Shown piece by piece: positions 5,332 to 13,615 of a DNA stretch of 64,000 nt. The first letter of the stretch is position 1, and every line of letters begins with the position of its first letter. The stretch lies in NCBI GenBank assembly GCA_002691465.1, contig NZHP01000022.1, forward strand, positions 27,613 through 91,612. The letters are read 5' to 3'. A program made the position numbers and the translations under genes. The notes beneath the pieces are model-generated. The model worked only from the letters and a program-made list of their open reading frames with translations. It had not been told where the DNA came from and did not search any database. The DNA is from Gammaproteobacteria bacterium (GTDB lineage: Bacteria; Pseudomonadota; Gammaproteobacteria; Steroidobacterales; UBA11654).

Positions 5332-5352
5332 GGATTAATGGAGTGTTATGAA

Positions 5353-6375
5353 ATGAATAGGAGGCAATTTATTTATGGGACAGCAGCAGTTGCAGTTCCA
5401 GTATTAGTGGGCTGCGATAATGATGATGAACCCATTGTAAGCATTGATGAAAACTATCCAATCGGACCTTTTGGTGCGACATCCACAGCCGAGGAAGTCA
5501 CTGTTGGATTGGATTTAACAGGAAAGACTGCAATGGTCACAGGCTGTAATTCCGGTTTGGGTTTCGAGACAATGCGAGTTTTAGCAATGAGAGGCGCACA
5601 CGTTATTGGCACGGGGAGGAATCTTGAAAAAGCCAGCAAAGCCTGCTCAAGCATATCTGGAAAAACGACGCCCGTGGCCCTTGAGTTATCAGACTTTGAT
5701 TCAATTATTGAATGCAGTGATACAGTCAAGAAGCTGGGCTATCCCATTGATATTTTGGTATGCAATGCTGGAATAAATACATTTGACGAATTGGATTTAG
5801 TAAACGGTGTCGAGAGAATATTTGCCGTCAATCATTTAGGCCACTTTGTATTGGTTAATCGTTTGATGCCCCTATTAAAAAAGTCTAAAGAGAGTCGGAT
5901 TGTTCATGTAAGCAGTAAGTCTGCCTATGTCCAGGCTCCCAAAGCAGGAATAGATTTCGATAATCTCAGAGGCGAGGGAGAATTTGATTATTGGGCTGCA
6001 TATGGTCGATCCAAGTTAGCAAACGCCTTATTTTCTATAGAGCTTGCTTCTAGGCTTGAAGGCTCCAATGTTACTTCAAATGCGCTTCATCCTGGGTTGG
6101 TTCAAACTAATATTGCTCGGAATGCACCTGTCTTGCTTCGAAAAGCTTTTGATTGGTTTGGCAATCTCATTGCAAAAACACCTGAGCAAGGAGCAGCTAC
6201 GCAAGTTTATGTGGCAACAAACCAAGCCCTAAAGGGAGTCAGTGGTGCATTTTTTGAGGATTGCAATGCAGTGAGCGTGAGTGGCGATAATTTTTTATTC
6301 GATAAGCCAATGGCCGAACGTCTTTGGTCAACCAGTGAAGAGATGGCACAAGGCTATTTGATTGATTGGGAGTGA
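5353..6375 (+). CDS. Short-chain dehydrogenase/reductase with Tat/lipoprotein-like N-terminus
   Basis: NRRQFIYGTAAVAVPVLVGCDND leader; TGCNSGLG Rossmann motif; YGRSK active site. Confidence 0.85.
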   Translation: MNRRQFIYGTAAVAVPVLVGCDNDDEPIVSIDENYPIGPFGATSTAEEVTVGLDLTGKTAMVTGCNSGLGFETMRVLAMRGAHVIGTGRNLEKASKACSSISGKTTPVALELSDFDSIIECSDTVKKLGYPIDILVCNAGINTFDELDLVNGVERIFAVNHLGHFVLVNRLMPLLKKSKESRIVHVSSKSAYVQAPKAGIDFDNLRGEGEFDYWAAYGRSKLANALFSIELASRLEGSNVTSNALHPGLVQTNIARNAPVLLRKAFDWFGNLIAKTPEQGAATQVYVATNQALKGVSGAFFEDCNAVSVSGDNFLFDKPMAERLWSTSEEMAQGYLIDWE

Positions 6376-6389
6376 GTCTAATACTCAAT

Positions 6390-6791
6390 ATGTTGAAAGT
6401 ATTACAATTACCCACTCAATGGTGGAGAAAGCTCTCTTTATTTGGGCTTTCTTTATTTTTTATTTACTTTGGCATTGATCACTTCATCAATCCTGAGTTT
6501 TATCTTTCTATTATGCCCCCAGCTTTTCCATTGCATGCAGAAGCAGTATACATCAGTGGTTTCTTTGAAATTTTAGGTGGCATTTCAGTATTGATAGCGC
6601 CACTAAGAAAGATAGCAGGATGGGGATTAGTTGCTTTATTGATTTGTGTTTATCCTGCCAATATTTACATGGCCATTACACCTGAGGCTTTCCCTGAAAT
6701 ATCTATAGAGCTGCTTTATTTTAGACTTCCGTTACAATTCCTATTCATATATTGGGCATATTCAGTAACAAGACCTCATTACTTACAATGA
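6390..6791 (+). CDS. DoxX-like small membrane protein
   Basis: Four hydrophobic segments, FGIDHFINPEFY...GFFEILGG pattern; start set at internal ATG. Confidence 0.7.
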   Translation: MLKVLQLPTQWWRKLSLFGLSLFFIYFGIDHFINPEFYLSIMPPAFPLHAEAVYISGFFEILGGISVLIAPLRKIAGWGLVALLICVYPANIYMAITPEAFPEISIELLYFRLPLQFLFIYWAYSVTRPHYLQ

Positions 6792-6837
6792 TGATAAGAA
6801 GTAATCGAGTTTCATATTTTTTAAAGGAGATTAGTAA

Positions 6838-7380
6838 ATGAGTGATCCACTTAAAATTAAACAATACATTAGGACGGTTAATGATTTTCCAATTAATGGT
6901 ATAGCTTTTAGGGATATTACGAGTCTAATCGAAACCCCTGTTGCTTTTGTTGAAACCTGTGAAGAGCTTACAAGAATTTCTAAATCATTTGATGCCACTT
7001 CAATTGCAAGCATAGAAAGCAGAGGATTTATATTTGCAGGCTCCATAGCCAAAGATTTATCTTTACCATTTATTCTTGCCAGAAAGCCTGGAAAACTGCC
7101 CAATGAGACTTTTATGAAGGATTTTGACCTTGAATACGGCAGTACATCCATTGAAATTCAGAAAAACACCGTTGTGAATGAATCAGACAGAGTTGTAATC
7201 GTCGATGATCTGGTTGCAACTGGTGGCACAGCTATTGCCTGTGCAGAGCTTCTTACAGAGAACTTTAACGTGAAAAAACAAAACATTCTTATTCTTGCTG
7301 TAATTGATTTGCCAGATTTAGGAGGCAGTAAGCTGATTGCTGATCAAGGATATAAAATTGAGACCCTTGTAAGTTATTGA
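6838..7380 (+). CDS. apt: Adenine phosphoribosyltransferase
   Basis: GIAFRDITSLIETP, ESRGFIFAG, RKPGKLPNET, VVIVDDLVATGGTA. Confidence 0.95.
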   Translation: MSDPLKIKQYIRTVNDFPINGIAFRDITSLIETPVAFVETCEELTRISKSFDATSIASIESRGFIFAGSIAKDLSLPFILARKPGKLPNETFMKDFDLEYGSTSIEIQKNTVVNESDRVVIVDDLVATGGTAIACAELLTENFNVKKQNILILAVIDLPDLGGSKLIADQGYKIETLVSY

Positions 7381-8975
7381 TGAAGCTAGATCTAAATAAG
7401 TTTAAGTTTATCTTTGCTGTACTCCTTTTTTTGGGAGTTGAGCCATTGATTTCTAAAACCCATTCAGATGGATTTTGCATAAGTCAGCGGTCGATTGAGA
7501 ATCAGCCAACATGGATAGGCTGGGGAAACTCTCATGATCAGCATCGCTTTCAGGATGAATCAGTGAGTTTGATCAATCTTGAGAATATTTCCAATTTAAA
7601 GATGAAATGGGTTTTTGGAGTGCCAGATGCTGAAAAGGTTAGATCGCAGCCCTCCATTGCGGGTGGATTTCTTTATTTTGGTACTCAATCGGGATTGGTT
7701 TATGCGCTTGATGCTGAAGTTGGTTGCATACGATGGACATACAAAGCAAAAGCAGAAGTCAGGAATGCAATTGCAATTGATCTGAATCAATCAAACCATC
7801 CCAATGATCTATATTTTGGAGATTTTGAAGGAAGAATTTATCGCTTGGATGCATTAACAGGCGAGGAAAAATGGATCAGAAAACCAAATGCACATCCATT
7901 AACAACAATTACTGGTTCAATTGCAATATTTGAAAATAATATTTTTGTTCCTCTTTCATCTGTAGAGATTGTTGCTGCAATTGATGAAAATTACGAATGC
8001 TGCACTTTTCGTGGTGGCGTAGTTGCTATAAACAAGATTTCTGGTGAAACAACATGGAAATATTACACAGTCAATGAACCAATCGAGGCTGGTTTCAATG
8101 ACGCAAATGCAAAGAAATGGGGACCCTCAGGAGTGCCTGTTTGGTCAAGCCCAACCATCGATAAAAAGAGAAGTAAGTTATATATTGGGACTGGACAAAA
8201 CTACTCTCTACCTGCAACAAAGATGAGTGATTCTATAATTGCTATAGACATAAATAGTGGAAGAAAGGCTTGGTCATTTCAGTCCGAAAAGAACGATATA
8301 TGGAATGGTTCGTGTGTGAGGAATGGAATCAATTGCGATTTTGATGTGGGATCAAACTTTGATTTTGGGGCATCGCCATTATTAATTAGAGATGAAAATA
8401 GAGGGGATCTGATATTAGCTGGTCAAAAATCAGGGATGCTTTTTGCGATTGATCCAGACGATGGAAGCATGGTTTGGGAAAGAAGGATAGGAAAGGGGGG
8501 AGAGCATGGCGGAGTTCACTGGTCATTATCGTCCGATGGAAAGCGAGTATTTGTTCCAGTCGGAGACATTGGAGATCATCCAAAAGCCATAGGTAAAAGT
8601 AAGTCAGGAGTCTATGCATTCGATCCATATACTGGCGAACAATTATGGGGCTATGAAGCCAAAGAACGCTGCTCCGATAACACATTTTTTTGCCACAGCG
8701 GCTTCTCTGCAGCCATATCATCGACCGATGAAATATTATTTGCTGGCAACCTAAATGGAGTCTTGTACGCATTCTCTACAATCACTGGAGAGTCGGTTTG
8801 GGAGTTTGATACACGAAGAGAATTTCAGGGCATAAATTCAATTCCTGCAGTTGGAGGCACGATTGATGCAACTGGTCCGGTCATTTCTAAAAGAATGATT
8901 TATATTAACTCGGGTTATGGCGGATATGGTAAATTAGCTGGAAATGCACTCATTGCATTTGAAATCATTGATTAG
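7380..8975 (+). CDS. PQQ-binding-like beta-propeller protein (PQQ-dependent dehydrogenase/PVA-DH-like), secreted
   Basis: Signal peptide; WxW beta-propeller repeats (YALDAEVGCIRWTYKAKAEVRNAI, YRLDALTGEEKWIRKP, YAFDPYTGEQLWGYEA). Confidence 0.82.
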   Translation: MKLDLNKFKFIFAVLLFLGVEPLISKTHSDGFCISQRSIENQPTWIGWGNSHDQHRFQDESVSLINLENISNLKMKWVFGVPDAEKVRSQPSIAGGFLYFGTQSGLVYALDAEVGCIRWTYKAKAEVRNAIAIDLNQSNHPNDLYFGDFEGRIYRLDALTGEEKWIRKPNAHPLTTITGSIAIFENNIFVPLSSVEIVAAIDENYECCTFRGGVVAINKISGETTWKYYTVNEPIEAGFNDANAKKWGPSGVPVWSSPTIDKKRSKLYIGTGQNYSLPATKMSDSIIAIDINSGRKAWSFQSEKNDIWNGSCVRNGINCDFDVGSNFDFGASPLLIRDENRGDLILAGQKSGMLFAIDPDDGSMVWERRIGKGGEHGGVHWSLSSDGKRVFVPVGDIGDHPKAIGKSKSGVYAFDPYTGEQLWGYEAKERCSDNTFFCHSGFSAAISSTDEILFAGNLNGVLYAFSTITGESVWEFDTRREFQGINSIPAVGGTIDATGPVISKRMIYINSGYGGYGKLAGNALIAFEIID

Positions 8976-8984
8976 GTTTTCTAG

Positions 8985-10322
8985 ATGTCGAAAGTTAAAA
9001 TCAATAAATCAAGAAGAAGATTAATCCAATCTGCTGGCTCAATTCCTATAGCCGTCTCAGCTCCAAATGTTTTAAGCAATCATCACCATAGAGAGCAAAC
9101 GAACCCAGTTGTATCAAATCTTGATGAGATTTATCCAAGATGGAAAACAGATTCTGCAAAGTGGGATCTACAAACAAAAAGATTCCCAGGGCAAAAGATT
9201 CATGCAGCAATGGGCATCGCAGATTTAGACTTCAAAACTGCACCTGAGATCACTAAAGCCATTGCAGAGAGAGTCTTGCATGAAAATTGGGGTTATATAT
9301 TGACCCCAGATTCTTACTACGAATCAATCGTCGAATGGATCCTCAAAAGATATGGGGAAAGGATTTCAAGGGACCAACTTTTGTTGTCCACAGGTGTTTT
9401 ACCTGCTATCCAGAGTGCCATCAGAGCATTTTGCCCAAAAAATTCTAAGGTGGTTTTGAATTCACCGGGATACACTGAATTGTATGCAAGCATTCGCAAG
9501 GCAGATTGCATGCCAGATGAAAGCCCATTGATCAAAAAAAATGGAATGTATTCCCTCGATTTCCCTGACCTTTCAAAAAGACTAGCCCGAGATGATGTGC
9601 ATGCATTTCTTTTAGTCAACCCACACAATCCGACTGGCAATTGTTGGTCTCGAGACGATCTAAAAAAAGTAGCAAAAATCTGTGACGAAAACGATGTCAT
9701 GCTGTTCTCTGATGAAATTCACTGCGATTTCATTGCTGACGATGCCCAATATACACCAATTTATTCTCTGGCAACTGAAGCGGTAAAACGTAAGGCCATT
9801 ATCTTCAAATCGACCACAAAGGCATTCAATTTATCTGCCTTTAAAACCGGATATGTTTATGCCCATGATGCAGAGATAATCTCAAAGATCAGACAAGCAG
9901 GCCATGTCGAATTTGCAAATACATTGGGTGTTATCGCATCTGAGGTGGCATATACTCATTCTGAAAAATGGCTTAATGAAGTAAGCAAATACATCAACCA
10001 GAACATGATTTTGGTTGAGAAATACATAAGAAAAAACATACCTTTGATCCGCTTCTATCGTCCCGAAGGAACTTACCTTGCATGGATAGATTTTACAGAA
10101 TGGATGAGTGCAATTGACGCAAAAGAGAAGGCGAATGAAAAGAATGAAGAAGAGGGCGATTATATGGAGAGGTATTTGGTTGAAAAGGCAGGCATTCAAT
10201 TGGGAAGGGGTTATCGATTTGGTAGTGGCGGTGAGAAATATTTAAGAATGAACGTTGGAACCTCAAAAATATTATTAAAAGAGGCCCTTGATAGGATTAA
10301 AATGGCTGCAGACGATTTATGA
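8985..10322 (+). CDS. MalY/PatB-type PLP aminotransferase with Tat-like leader
   Basis: NPHNPTGNCW, SDEIHCDF, STTKAFNLSAFKTGY; N-terminus KSRRRLIQSAGSIPIAVSAPNVLS. Confidence 0.87.
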   Translation: MSKVKINKSRRRLIQSAGSIPIAVSAPNVLSNHHHREQTNPVVSNLDEIYPRWKTDSAKWDLQTKRFPGQKIHAAMGIADLDFKTAPEITKAIAERVLHENWGYILTPDSYYESIVEWILKRYGERISRDQLLLSTGVLPAIQSAIRAFCPKNSKVVLNSPGYTELYASIRKADCMPDESPLIKKNGMYSLDFPDLSKRLARDDVHAFLLVNPHNPTGNCWSRDDLKKVAKICDENDVMLFSDEIHCDFIADDAQYTPIYSLATEAVKRKAIIFKSTTKAFNLSAFKTGYVYAHDAEIISKIRQAGHVEFANTLGVIASEVAYTHSEKWLNEVSKYINQNMILVEKYIRKNIPLIRFYRPEGTYLAWIDFTEWMSAIDAKEKANEKNEEEGDYMERYLVEKAGIQLGRGYRFGSGGEKYLRMNVGTSKILLKEALDRIKMAADDL

Positions 10323-10359
10323 TATTTGCAAATTCAAAAAAATTAATTTCAAGGGGTCA

Positions 10360-11187
10360 ATGAATATGAATTATAGAACCGCCAGTTTTTTTATTTTTCT
10401 TTTATTCTTTCTTTATGCGGACTTTGTTAATGCAAAAACTGTTCTTGTAACAGGTTCAAATAGAGGAATGGGTTTAGAGTTTGTGACCCAGTATGCAGAA
10501 AAAGGTTGGAGTGTGATTGCAACGAGTCGATCTCCTTCCGATGACTATGATCTCATTGATTTAGCCAAAGACAATCCAAAGATACAGATCGAACAAATGG
10601 ATGTTACAAAAACTTCAGAAATAAGCAATCTGGCTGAAAAATATCAGAATCAATCTATCGATTTGCTGATCAATAATGCCGGCATGAGTGGAGACAGGAG
10701 AAATCAAGCATGGGGTCAGATTGATCAAAACGAATTCACCAAATTGATTTCAATAAACGCGTTTGGAGCTTTGAAGGTTGCAGAAGCGTTTTCTAAAAAT
10801 ATTGCTAACAGCGAAGACAAAAAAATAGTTGCAATCTCTAGCGTGGCTGGATCAATTTCTTCCATGGGTCGGCCGTCATCGCTTCCAATTCTCTCAATCA
10901 GCAAAGCCGCCTTAAATATGGCAATGAAAACCGTTGCTCTGAGGCTTAAAGACGAAGGCGTCACTGTTATCCTTTTAAACCCTGGGGCAGTAGATACTAG
11001 AGCACTCAGGCAGGCATTTGGTTTATCCCTTGAGGAGGCAGAAAAGGCAACCAATTTTGACTACAAAGGTTACCCGACTGTGTCTCCAGAGGAGGGCGTG
11101 AGACGAATGATCGACGTCATTGAGAATGCAAACCAGTCACAAAACGGATCATTTCTGAACCACGATGGCAAAGAGTTGCCATGGTAG
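10360..11187 (+). CDS. SDR family protein (C-factor-like) with signal peptide/anchor
   Basis: MNMNYRTASFFIFLLFFLYADFVNA then KTVLVTGSNRGMG; INNAG motif; internal ATG chosen. Confidence 0.82.
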   Translation: MNMNYRTASFFIFLLFFLYADFVNAKTVLVTGSNRGMGLEFVTQYAEKGWSVIATSRSPSDDYDLIDLAKDNPKIQIEQMDVTKTSEISNLAEKYQNQSIDLLINNAGMSGDRRNQAWGQIDQNEFTKLISINAFGALKVAEAFSKNIANSEDKKIVAISSVAGSISSMGRPSSLPILSISKAALNMAMKTVALRLKDEGVTVILLNPGAVDTRALRQAFGLSLEEAEKATNFDYKGYPTVSPEEGVRRMIDVIENANQSQNGSFLNHDGKELPW

Positions 11188-11194
11188 AAAGAGT

Positions 11195-13615
11195 TTAACG
11201 TCGTCTGAGTTTTTCAGAAATTCCGTCCAAGTTCGCCTTGAGAAGCGATTGAATCCTCTGTGCATTATCACTCTCAGTATCTTTGTTTATAGAAATATTT
11301 CTAATTTTTCTTGAGAGTCTATTATTTCCGCCTTTGGAGATTTCATCATCAAACGAGGAGAGCAGCGATCTTATGTCTTCTTTCGTATCTGTTTCTATTG
11401 CCCCTATTCTCTCTAATTGATCCACATACGAAAGAGCAACCGATGGATTGGCAGGCCAAGTCATAGGTATTTGTTGTTGTGGATTGAATAGACGTTTTGA
11501 CCCAATTTGAGGATAGGCCAATTCTGCTGCTTCAATTTCATTCTCTGAAAGATACTCACTTGGTATTAGTTTAAAAACATCAAGCCCTCTCGTGATTTCA
11601 GTACCGTAAATGGTTCCTTCATAATAGTAAACCGACCAAAAACCTCCAGTGATCAGTTCGTCTTCTAGGATGGGCCCTCTGTCAAAATAGGCAATTTCAA
11701 TTGGATTTGATGAATCAGTAAAATCAATGACTGAAATACCCCCTTGATACCATGCTTGAACGAATATATCTCTTCCTGGAACAGGGATAATGGCCCCATT
11801 GTGAGCCACACAATTTTCTGTTTCTTTTTGTGGAGCTGGCATTTTGAAATGACTGCGAAACTGCAGCTGACCATCAACGATGTCATAAATGGCATTCGCA
11901 CCCCAATTTATAGGATCCCATGCTCTGCAGCGAGCTCTTCCGCCACCTCCCCATTCATCCGTGAACAATATTTTCGTGCCCTCATTATTGAATGTTGCCG
12001 AGTGCCAGTAAGCAAAACCTGTGTCGGTTACATCATCGATTCTTTGGGGCTTGGTTGGATCAGAGATATCAAAGAGTATTCCATTACCAGAGCAAGCGCC
12101 AGCAGCTAAAGAAGCGGAGGGGAAGACAGTAATGTCATGACATTGATCAGTAATTTCTGTTTCCTGAGTCTCATCTCCGTGATCACCGCCTCTCCATAAT
12201 CCTGCAATCACTCCAGTTTCCAGGTCTGCAAAAACCGTTGGGCTATCAACTATCTTTGAGTTTGAAGGATTATCTATGGGAATTTCAATCACGTCTATTC
12301 TAAAAAGAGCCGTCCTGTCATCTCCAGGAATATCCTCAAAACAATCCCCCATCTCTTCTTGATCTCGAATACTCGATGTCCCGGAGTTAAACACAATTAT
12401 TTTTCCATCTGAGGTAGGGCCTTCTACTACTGAATGAGTGTGAGATCCTCGACAAGTTTGAACAGCGCCAACTTGAACCGGCATTTCAGGATTGGAGATA
12501 TCGAATAGCCTGATTCCTCTGAAGCGCTCTTCATTGGGTTCCGGATCCACGCCTTGCAATCCACAATCCAGTCTCCCTCGTGTATCTTGAACCGACATAA
12601 TGAGCAGATCGCCAACAACAGAAACATCCCCTTGTCCTCCCGGGCAGACCACCGATGTCATCAGGTTAGGAAATCCATCTTCCTCCAATCGATATATATT
12701 GAATCCGTGATAGCTTCCCGCCACCAACATGTCTTCGGTAAATGCCATGTCTGTATTGGAGAAGCTCAGCATTGGATATCTTTGGCTGGAGGCTAACGAT
12801 TCTATTGATCTTTCCTCCTGAGACTCACTATTTTCTTCATCTTCATCGGGCTCAACAACTCCTCTCTCTAAGGGATTGTCTGGATCAAAGAAACCGGTTG
12901 GTTTTTTCAGTGAAGCGGTCAGTTCCATATTAAGGATTGCTATACCTGCGTCATAAACTCCTGGCTTTAATCCTGCTCTAGGATCATCAGAAAGACTGAT
13001 AAGAATGCCATTCATTCTTTCAATTTCAACAGCTTGGTCATTTTCAAGATCTGTGACAAATTCGTATAATTGAGGATCATAAGCAGAGCCAGGGAATTCA
13101 TTTAATCTATCCACCATGTCGATTGCACCATCGTGGTGTCTGATCATCAGATTCAAATACAATCTATCAAAATCAGTAGAATTGGAGGCTTCGAGTTTAT
13201 TCATTTGTTCTGGAGTAGCCATACCCATCATCTTGTGATGATGCGAGTGATCCGTCTGAGTTGGATCAGGGACGCTTTTCCCTCTTTCTGTGAGCCAATT
13301 CTCCATGAAGTCAATTTCATCTATTTGAGAAGCATCAATTCGGCCTGCTAGGTCGAGAATGGTTTGGTTATTCGTTCTCGAAGGCGCCATTTCTGACATT
13401 AAAAAGGCTTGGTAGTGATGAACTATCATCCCTTGTAAGAATTCAGCGTCTGCAGCTGTGTAGGATGAGTCGGCAATGGCAATGGCTGTTTCAGGATCCA
13501 ATTCTTTTGTTGGATTTCCGGGTGCTCCCGGTTGCAGTATTGGCACTTCAGCATTCACGCTCGCGTAACCGATCATTAAAGTAATAGTCATCAATCTTCT
13601 GAATCTAAATTTCAT
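11195..13615 (-). CDS. DUF305 domain plus LVIVD-type beta-propeller fusion, secreted
   Basis: FLQGMIVHHYQAFLMSEMA and NLMIRHHDGAIDMVDRL (DUF305-like); LVIVD-like repeats (GIRLFDISNPEMPVQVG, GISVIDFTDSSNPIEIAYFD). Confidence 0.8.
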   Translation of the reverse strand: MKFRFRRLMTITLMIGYASVNAEVPILQPGAPGNPTKELDPETAIAIADSSYTAADAEFLQGMIVHHYQAFLMSEMAPSRTNNQTILDLAGRIDASQIDEIDFMENWLTERGKSVPDPTQTDHSHHHKMMGMATPEQMNKLEASNSTDFDRLYLNLMIRHHDGAIDMVDRLNEFPGSAYDPQLYEFVTDLENDQAVEIERMNGILISLSDDPRAGLKPGVYDAGIAILNMELTASLKKPTGFFDPDNPLERGVVEPDEDEENSESQEERSIESLASSQRYPMLSFSNTDMAFTEDMLVAGSYHGFNIYRLEEDGFPNLMTSVVCPGGQGDVSVVGDLLIMSVQDTRGRLDCGLQGVDPEPNEERFRGIRLFDISNPEMPVQVGAVQTCRGSHTHSVVEGPTSDGKIIVFNSGTSSIRDQEEMGDCFEDIPGDDRTALFRIDVIEIPIDNPSNSKIVDSPTVFADLETGVIAGLWRGGDHGDETQETEITDQCHDITVFPSASLAAGACSGNGILFDISDPTKPQRIDDVTDTGFAYWHSATFNNEGTKILFTDEWGGGGRARCRAWDPINWGANAIYDIVDGQLQFRSHFKMPAPQKETENCVAHNGAIIPVPGRDIFVQAWYQGGISVIDFTDSSNPIEIAYFDRGPILEDELITGGFWSVYYYEGTIYGTEITRGLDVFKLIPSEYLSENEIEAAELAYPQIGSKRLFNPQQQIPMTWPANPSVALSYVDQLERIGAIETDTKEDIRSLLSSFDDEISKGGNNRLSRKIRNISINKDTESDNAQRIQSLLKANLDGISEKLRRR

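Follow-up and report, generated by a model that had tools for sequence, protein, structure and literature searches.

Short-chain dehydrogenases/reductases (SDRs) are usually treated as cytoplasmic NAD(P) enzymes, and only fungal work on periplasmic or secreted SDRs turned up in the literature that we searched. Here we describe two SDR genes with predicted export leaders, SDR1 and SDR2, in a 64,000-nucleotide stretch of the gammaproteobacterial contig NZHP01000022.1 (hereafter the window), together with a pyrroloquinoline quinone (PQQ)-type propeller gene and a PatB-like pyridoxal phosphate (PLP) enzyme, here called AT. The closest described relatives of SDR2 are the Sniffer/C-factor (CsgA)-like SDRs, PRK08177 and PRK06953 and the patulin-detoxifying SDR 7XWI; we take CsgA to be a member of the SDR family. 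SDR2 resembles these in fold (TM-score 0.80), glycine motif, NNAG, the active-site Lys and a C-terminal DGxxxPW, but differs by its Sec signal peptide, a Tyr to Leu change and a gene link to a quinohemoprotein. The propeller is of the type found in the quinohemoprotein alcohol dehydrogenases (1KB0, 1YIQ), and PVA dehydrogenase is presumably a further relative. Orthologs of the window gene have an N-terminal CxxCH domain, whereas the window copy has no haem domain and falls far under the methanol/ethanol-family cut-off.

For AT, the fold and the PLP-site residues are those of the PatB/MalY cysteine-S-conjugate/cystathionine beta-lyases (TIGR04350), while a 40-residue twin-arginine translocation (Tat) leader and a score below the family cut-off set it apart; the 17 gammaproteobacterial PatB homologs sampled, 27-35% identical to AT, all lack the leader. 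AT, like the SDRs, is of a kind that usually remains within the cell. Exported PLP enzymes acting on amino acids are known among the periplasmic broad-spectrum racemases (PMC6034422), but these (BsrV, P. putida Alr) have the alanine-racemase fold whereas AT is of fold-type I. A MalY from Lactobacillus sakei acts as a racemase on several substrates (PMC5845896). Glucose-fructose oxidoreductase, which according to Halbig 1999, as cited in PMC7317946, is exported by Tat with NADP loaded, is like SDR1 a Rossmann enzyme that uses a nucleotide coenzyme and has a twin-arginine leader, but SDR1 is of another family (SDR) and carries a predicted lipid anchor. The single parts of the locus (Tat enzymes, SDRs, PQQ propellers) are ordinary; what is unusual is a conserved exported SDR without its catalytic Tyr, and the pairing of this SDR.

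SDR2 has nine orthologs in two families (genomes G000-G003, G124, G136, G519, G520 and G523), and in all nine the catalytic Tyr is replaced by Leu, so that YxxxK has become LxxSK. The nine form one clade (support 100/99), the loss is a single change on the tree, and they all retain TGxxxGxG, NNAG and the active-site Asn, Ser and Lys. Outside this clade only one readable paralog (L109, with Met) departs from Tyr. In the nearest solved structure the residue aligned to Leu178 is Tyr155, the position mutated to Phe in 7xwj/7xwk. As the catalytic Tyr is lost in every ortholog, normal NAD(P) oxidoreductase activity is unlikely for SDR2.

The same nine proteins carry a hydrophobic leader with Ala at -1, placed directly before a first beta strand of the KTVLVTG type; judged by inspection, each has the positive n-region, hydrophobic core and small residue at -1 of a Sec signal. 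SDR2 starts at ATG 10360 or 10366, there is no in-frame start between residues 3 and 37, and the next one, Met37, lies inside the glycine motif, hence the leader must be translated. An AlphaFold model of the predicted mature protein gives a complete SDR fold from residue 1 (pLDDT 92.9), and the TM-score given above is that of its best PDB match. The wider family of sniffer/C-factor-like SDRs has several copies per genome; leaders were found in 37 of the 51 members examined, and the leader state needs two changes on the tree. Three further paralogs in G000 have a Sec-type leader and keep the Tyr (C6:6139-6894, L072; C13:31623-32342, L108; C15:10525-11274, L117).

In G519, G520 and G523, which belong to another family than the window, the gene order is phosphoribosyltransferase, SDR2, a cytochrome c/PQQ gene and a leaderless SDR with Tyr, and the cytochrome c/PQQ gene overlaps SDR2 by a few bases. 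In G000-G003 SDR2 and the PQQ-type gene share a cassette with AT. Therefore SDR2 and the quinohemoprotein form a conserved pair. The cassette is itself optional and independent of the stable SDR1-DoxX-apt arrangement. In G007 the DUF305 gene comes straight after the adenine phosphoribosyltransferase gene (apt); SDR1-DoxX-apt is intact, the PQQ-AT-SDR2 genes are absent and the flanking proteins are 92.7-99.1% identical to those of the window. The apt|DUF305 slot holds other genes in G008 and G004. As G007 keeps SDR1-DoxX-apt without the cassette and the slot is otherwise filled elsewhere, the placement of SDR1 does not depend on the cassette; a conserved linkage of the two was looked for and not found, as was an SDR1-DoxX pair beyond the genus. 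By eye, the slot contents in G008 (L095 9462-14169) and G004 (L099 1275-6069) look like a His/Glu/Asp-rich TonB-type receptor, a saccharopine-dehydrogenase-like protein and a flavodoxin-like protein resembling NADPH-quinone reductases.

These gene orders bear on an earlier note on this DNA, which had suggested a possible periplasmic or membrane-anchored redox/amino-acid pathway and had proposed conserved co-localisation as a check. As drawn, a single pathway is not supported, since SDR1 is arranged independently of the cassette, SDR2 is without the Tyr and AT is lineage-specific. In two families co-localisation was recovered between SDR2 and the cytochrome c/PQQ gene, but it was not recovered between SDR1 and the cassette, and AT is not part of the cross-family pair.

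Table 1. Positions of the described genes and sequence elements within the window
Feature	Position	Strand	Remark
SDR2, Sec-exported sniffer/C-factor-like SDR without catalytic Tyr	10360..11187	+	
SDR2 Sec-type signal peptide ending VNA, mature start KTVLVTG	10360..10434	+	
Leu178 codon (CTC) at catalytic Tyr position of YxxxK, Lys182 kept	10891..10893	+	
SDR1, PRK06196-like group SDR	5353..6375	+	Tat (NRRQF) plus lipobox (LVGC) leader
SDR1 Tat-lipoprotein leader, predicted lipid-anchor Cys21	5353..5415	+	kept in genus orthologs
AT, PatB/MalY-like fold-type I PLP enzyme, Tat leader	8985..10322	+	PLP-site residues intact
AT twin-arginine motif SRRRLIQ	9009..9029	+	invariant in 4 orthologs
Exported PQQ-type beta-propeller, related to quinoprotein alcohol dehydrogenases	7380..8975	+	ECCTFRGG motif, N-terminal hydrophobic segment
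DoxX/MauE-like membrane protein	6366..6791	+	adjoins SDR1 in most genus members showing both
Adenine phosphoribosyltransferase (apt)	6838..7380	+	left edge of variable slot
Exported DUF305 plus choice-of-anchor-B-like protein	11195..13615	-	right edge of variable slot

SDR1 has all the classical SDR motifs, TGCNSGLG (TGxxxGxG), CNAG, HVSS and a catalytic YxxxK intact as YGRSK (Tyr217 and Lys221). From ATG 5353 (an alternative ATG lies at 5338) the leader reads MNRRQFIYGTAAVAVPVLVGC, where NRRQFIY fits the S/T-R-R-x-F-L-K-like pattern and is conserved, and LVGC matches the lipobox [LVI][ASTVI][GAS]C with the Cys21 codon at 5413. The Tat-plus-lipobox leader, with a Cys at the lipid-anchor site, is kept in all genus orthologs, and this holds in spite of possible internal starts in SDR1. 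Across the order the leader is conserved at 50-55% identity. Among the 41 homologs in the order (42-55% identity) about 36 have the twin-arginine leader, 21 of them with a lipobox that fits the strict pattern, and three have no leader at all. G004 has two SDR1 loci (L051 in G004:C4 and L052 in G004:C7), both frame-broken, probably through assembly error or strain mixture.

AT has its only start at 8985 and begins with MSKVKINKSRRRLIQSAGS. No further in-frame start codon occurs before residue 76, within the PatB domain, and the leader is therefore part of the product; the segment INKSRRRLIQSAG is invariant in all four orthologs. The PLP-binding Lys279, Asp243 and the substrate-binding Arg421 are present and invariant. 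AT scores 305.2 bits against TIGR04350 (PatB), for which the curated cut-off is 340, and no other family comes near this score. G000-G003 are the only searched genomes of the family that have orthologs of both AT and SDR2, and AT is a lineage-specific addition in the genus of the window. AT is probably a C-S lyase or racemase and would act in the periplasm.

When the first 40 residues of the 63 open reading frames in the window were searched for RRx[FLIVM], only SDR1 and AT were flagged. With a stricter motif and shuffled N-termini the chance expectation is 0.0007 per N-terminus, or about 0.04 in all. The host genome encodes tatABC, with tatC above the Pfam cut-off and tatA and tatB upstream of it, and TatC was found in 110 of 113 high-quality genomes of the order. 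Hence Tat-dependent export of SDR1 and AT is predicted from the motifs together with the presence of tatABC, and predicted export of all three enzymes is supported by conserved leaders and, for AT and SDR2, by the lack of starts that would bypass them. Adjacent to tatABC we noted a TRAP-transporter DctP-like protein (L087 9004-10089), also with a twin-arginine leader, KIKRRDLLLGTG. Loss of TatC in G004, G005, G006, G009 and G010 was considered as a natural experiment, with twin-arginine leaders kept without Tat, and was rejected for G006, where the contig breaks off within tatA, which follows dtd, so that tatC falls in a gap of the metagenome-assembled genome (MAG); in the other four, where the genes neighbouring tatC are missing too, the loss stays a putative one.

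The PQQ-type gene scores 130.1 bits against TIGR03075 (methanol/ethanol family), where the curated cut-off is 480. The orthologs in G001-G003 keep an N-terminal cytochrome c domain with CIDCH, which the window copy has lost, so that in this region (7380-7480) its signal peptide directly abuts the propeller. It should be noted that a scan of 11 genomes with TIGR02111 (pqqC) gave no match, and neither did the control. The earlier note had placed these four genes and three leaders where we find them, and its reading of the leaders (Tat-like plus lipobox in SDR1, an export leader in AT, and VNA before the Rossmann motif in SDR2) is confirmed by the conservation described above. It had also called the propeller a PQQ-type dehydrogenase; the exported propeller stands, while dehydrogenase describes a family resemblance only.

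We lean slightly towards two independent periplasmic modules, SDR1 on the one hand and the PQQ-AT-SDR2 cassette on the other, with SDR2 as a redox-silent partner of the quinohemoprotein. SDR1, an NAD(P)-type reductase, would fold and probably take up its coenzyme in the cytoplasm, be exported by Tat and be lipidated at Cys21. Tat would let SDR1 and AT leave with NADP and PLP already bound, as with glucose-fructose oxidoreductase. From the cassette would come a quinohemoprotein-type propeller located in the periplasm, a PatB-like PLP enzyme exported by Tat, and SDR2, which would leave unfolded by Sec and lose its leader just ahead of the first strand. SDR2 retains the nucleotide-binding frame, and we infer that it performs no ordinary hydride chemistry but would bind a ligand or nucleotide as partner of the quinohemoprotein. 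Since SDR2 would pass unfolded through Sec and is without the acid/base Tyr, it is most simply read as having a binding role next to the quinohemoprotein.

Several points weigh against this. The protein locations rest on sequence pattern and conservation, and AT lies below the curated PatB cut-off. The pairing of SDR2 with a PQQ gene is not universal, since the orthologs in G124 and G136 have none within about 7-9 kb. The PQQ partner may be decaying here, because the window copy has lost its haem domain, and some SDRs without the Tyr may be active through other residues.

There is an alternative that we hold to be unlikely, in which SDR2 is still active in the periplasm with altered chemistry, either on lipids or carbonyls as in CsgA or Sniffer or as an elimination or isomerase reaction, with a coenzyme taken from outside or retained from the folding step. 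The Tyr is indeed the sole loss, with glycine motif, NNAG, Asn, Ser and Lys invariant, but this residue serves classical SDRs as general acid/base and is here invariantly Leu. Among the nearest folds are NADPH-bound carbonyl reductases and Sniffer, and exported paralogs in the same genomes retain the Tyr; on the other hand chains cross by Sec in the unfolded state, and the periplasm is not expected to contain free NADP. For CsgA of Myxococcus, roles as a cardiolipin phospholipase or as a surface signal have been reported (PMC11559036), which would fit an active SDR2.

A further reading, which we regard as quite improbable, makes the cassette a laterally moved metabolic island in decay, whose genes at present serve no common function in this strain. 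Its absence from the same site in G007, the other slot contents elsewhere and the lost haem domain speak for such an island, but all three reading frames are intact, and between strains the SDR2 and AT bodies differ by 0.47-0.49 at third codon positions and by only 0.09-0.14 at positions 1 and 2. That the leaders are uncleaved membrane anchors, with SDR and PLP enzymes facing the cytoplasm, is very improbable, for although hydrophobic N-terminal anchors are known from eukaryotic SDRs, the positive n-regions here favour N-in/C-out, Ala at -1 is conserved in 9/9 SDR2 orthologs, strand 1 of SDR2 begins one residue past the hydrophobic stretch with no linker to a membrane helix, and SDR1 and AT have Tat motifs.

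The window is part of a MAG of 1.40 Mb in 41 contigs, from a marine bacterium with a very small genome. An AT-based scan of genome contigs gave only two public relatives, AG-447-O13 and MED656, both gammaproteobacterial. The gene order is guaA, MIP channel, guaC-like, enoyl-CoA hydratase, YdjM, SDR1, DoxX/MauE-like, apt, PQQ-type propeller, AT and SDR2, followed by the convergent DUF305 gene and glutamate dehydrogenase. The DUF305 part of the large exported protein is CopM-like, and this protein is kept beside the variable slot throughout the genus.

Further we speculate, with less confidence and rather doubtfully, that SDR2 represents a new class of SDR pseudo-enzymes, exported and lacking the Tyr. 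These would be periplasmic subunits dedicated to cytochrome c/PQQ quinohemoproteins and would belong to the wider Sec-exported SDR family. If this is true, the wider family points to SDRs that work outside the cytoplasm in streamlined marine bacteria. The labels 'SDR oxidoreductase' and 'aminotransferase' hide location and loss of function in such bacteria, a warning for annotation. With several Sec-leader SDR paralogs per 1.4-Mb genome and a clade without the Tyr linked to a quinohemoprotein, recruitment of SDRs outside the cytoplasm without hydride chemistry becomes testable.

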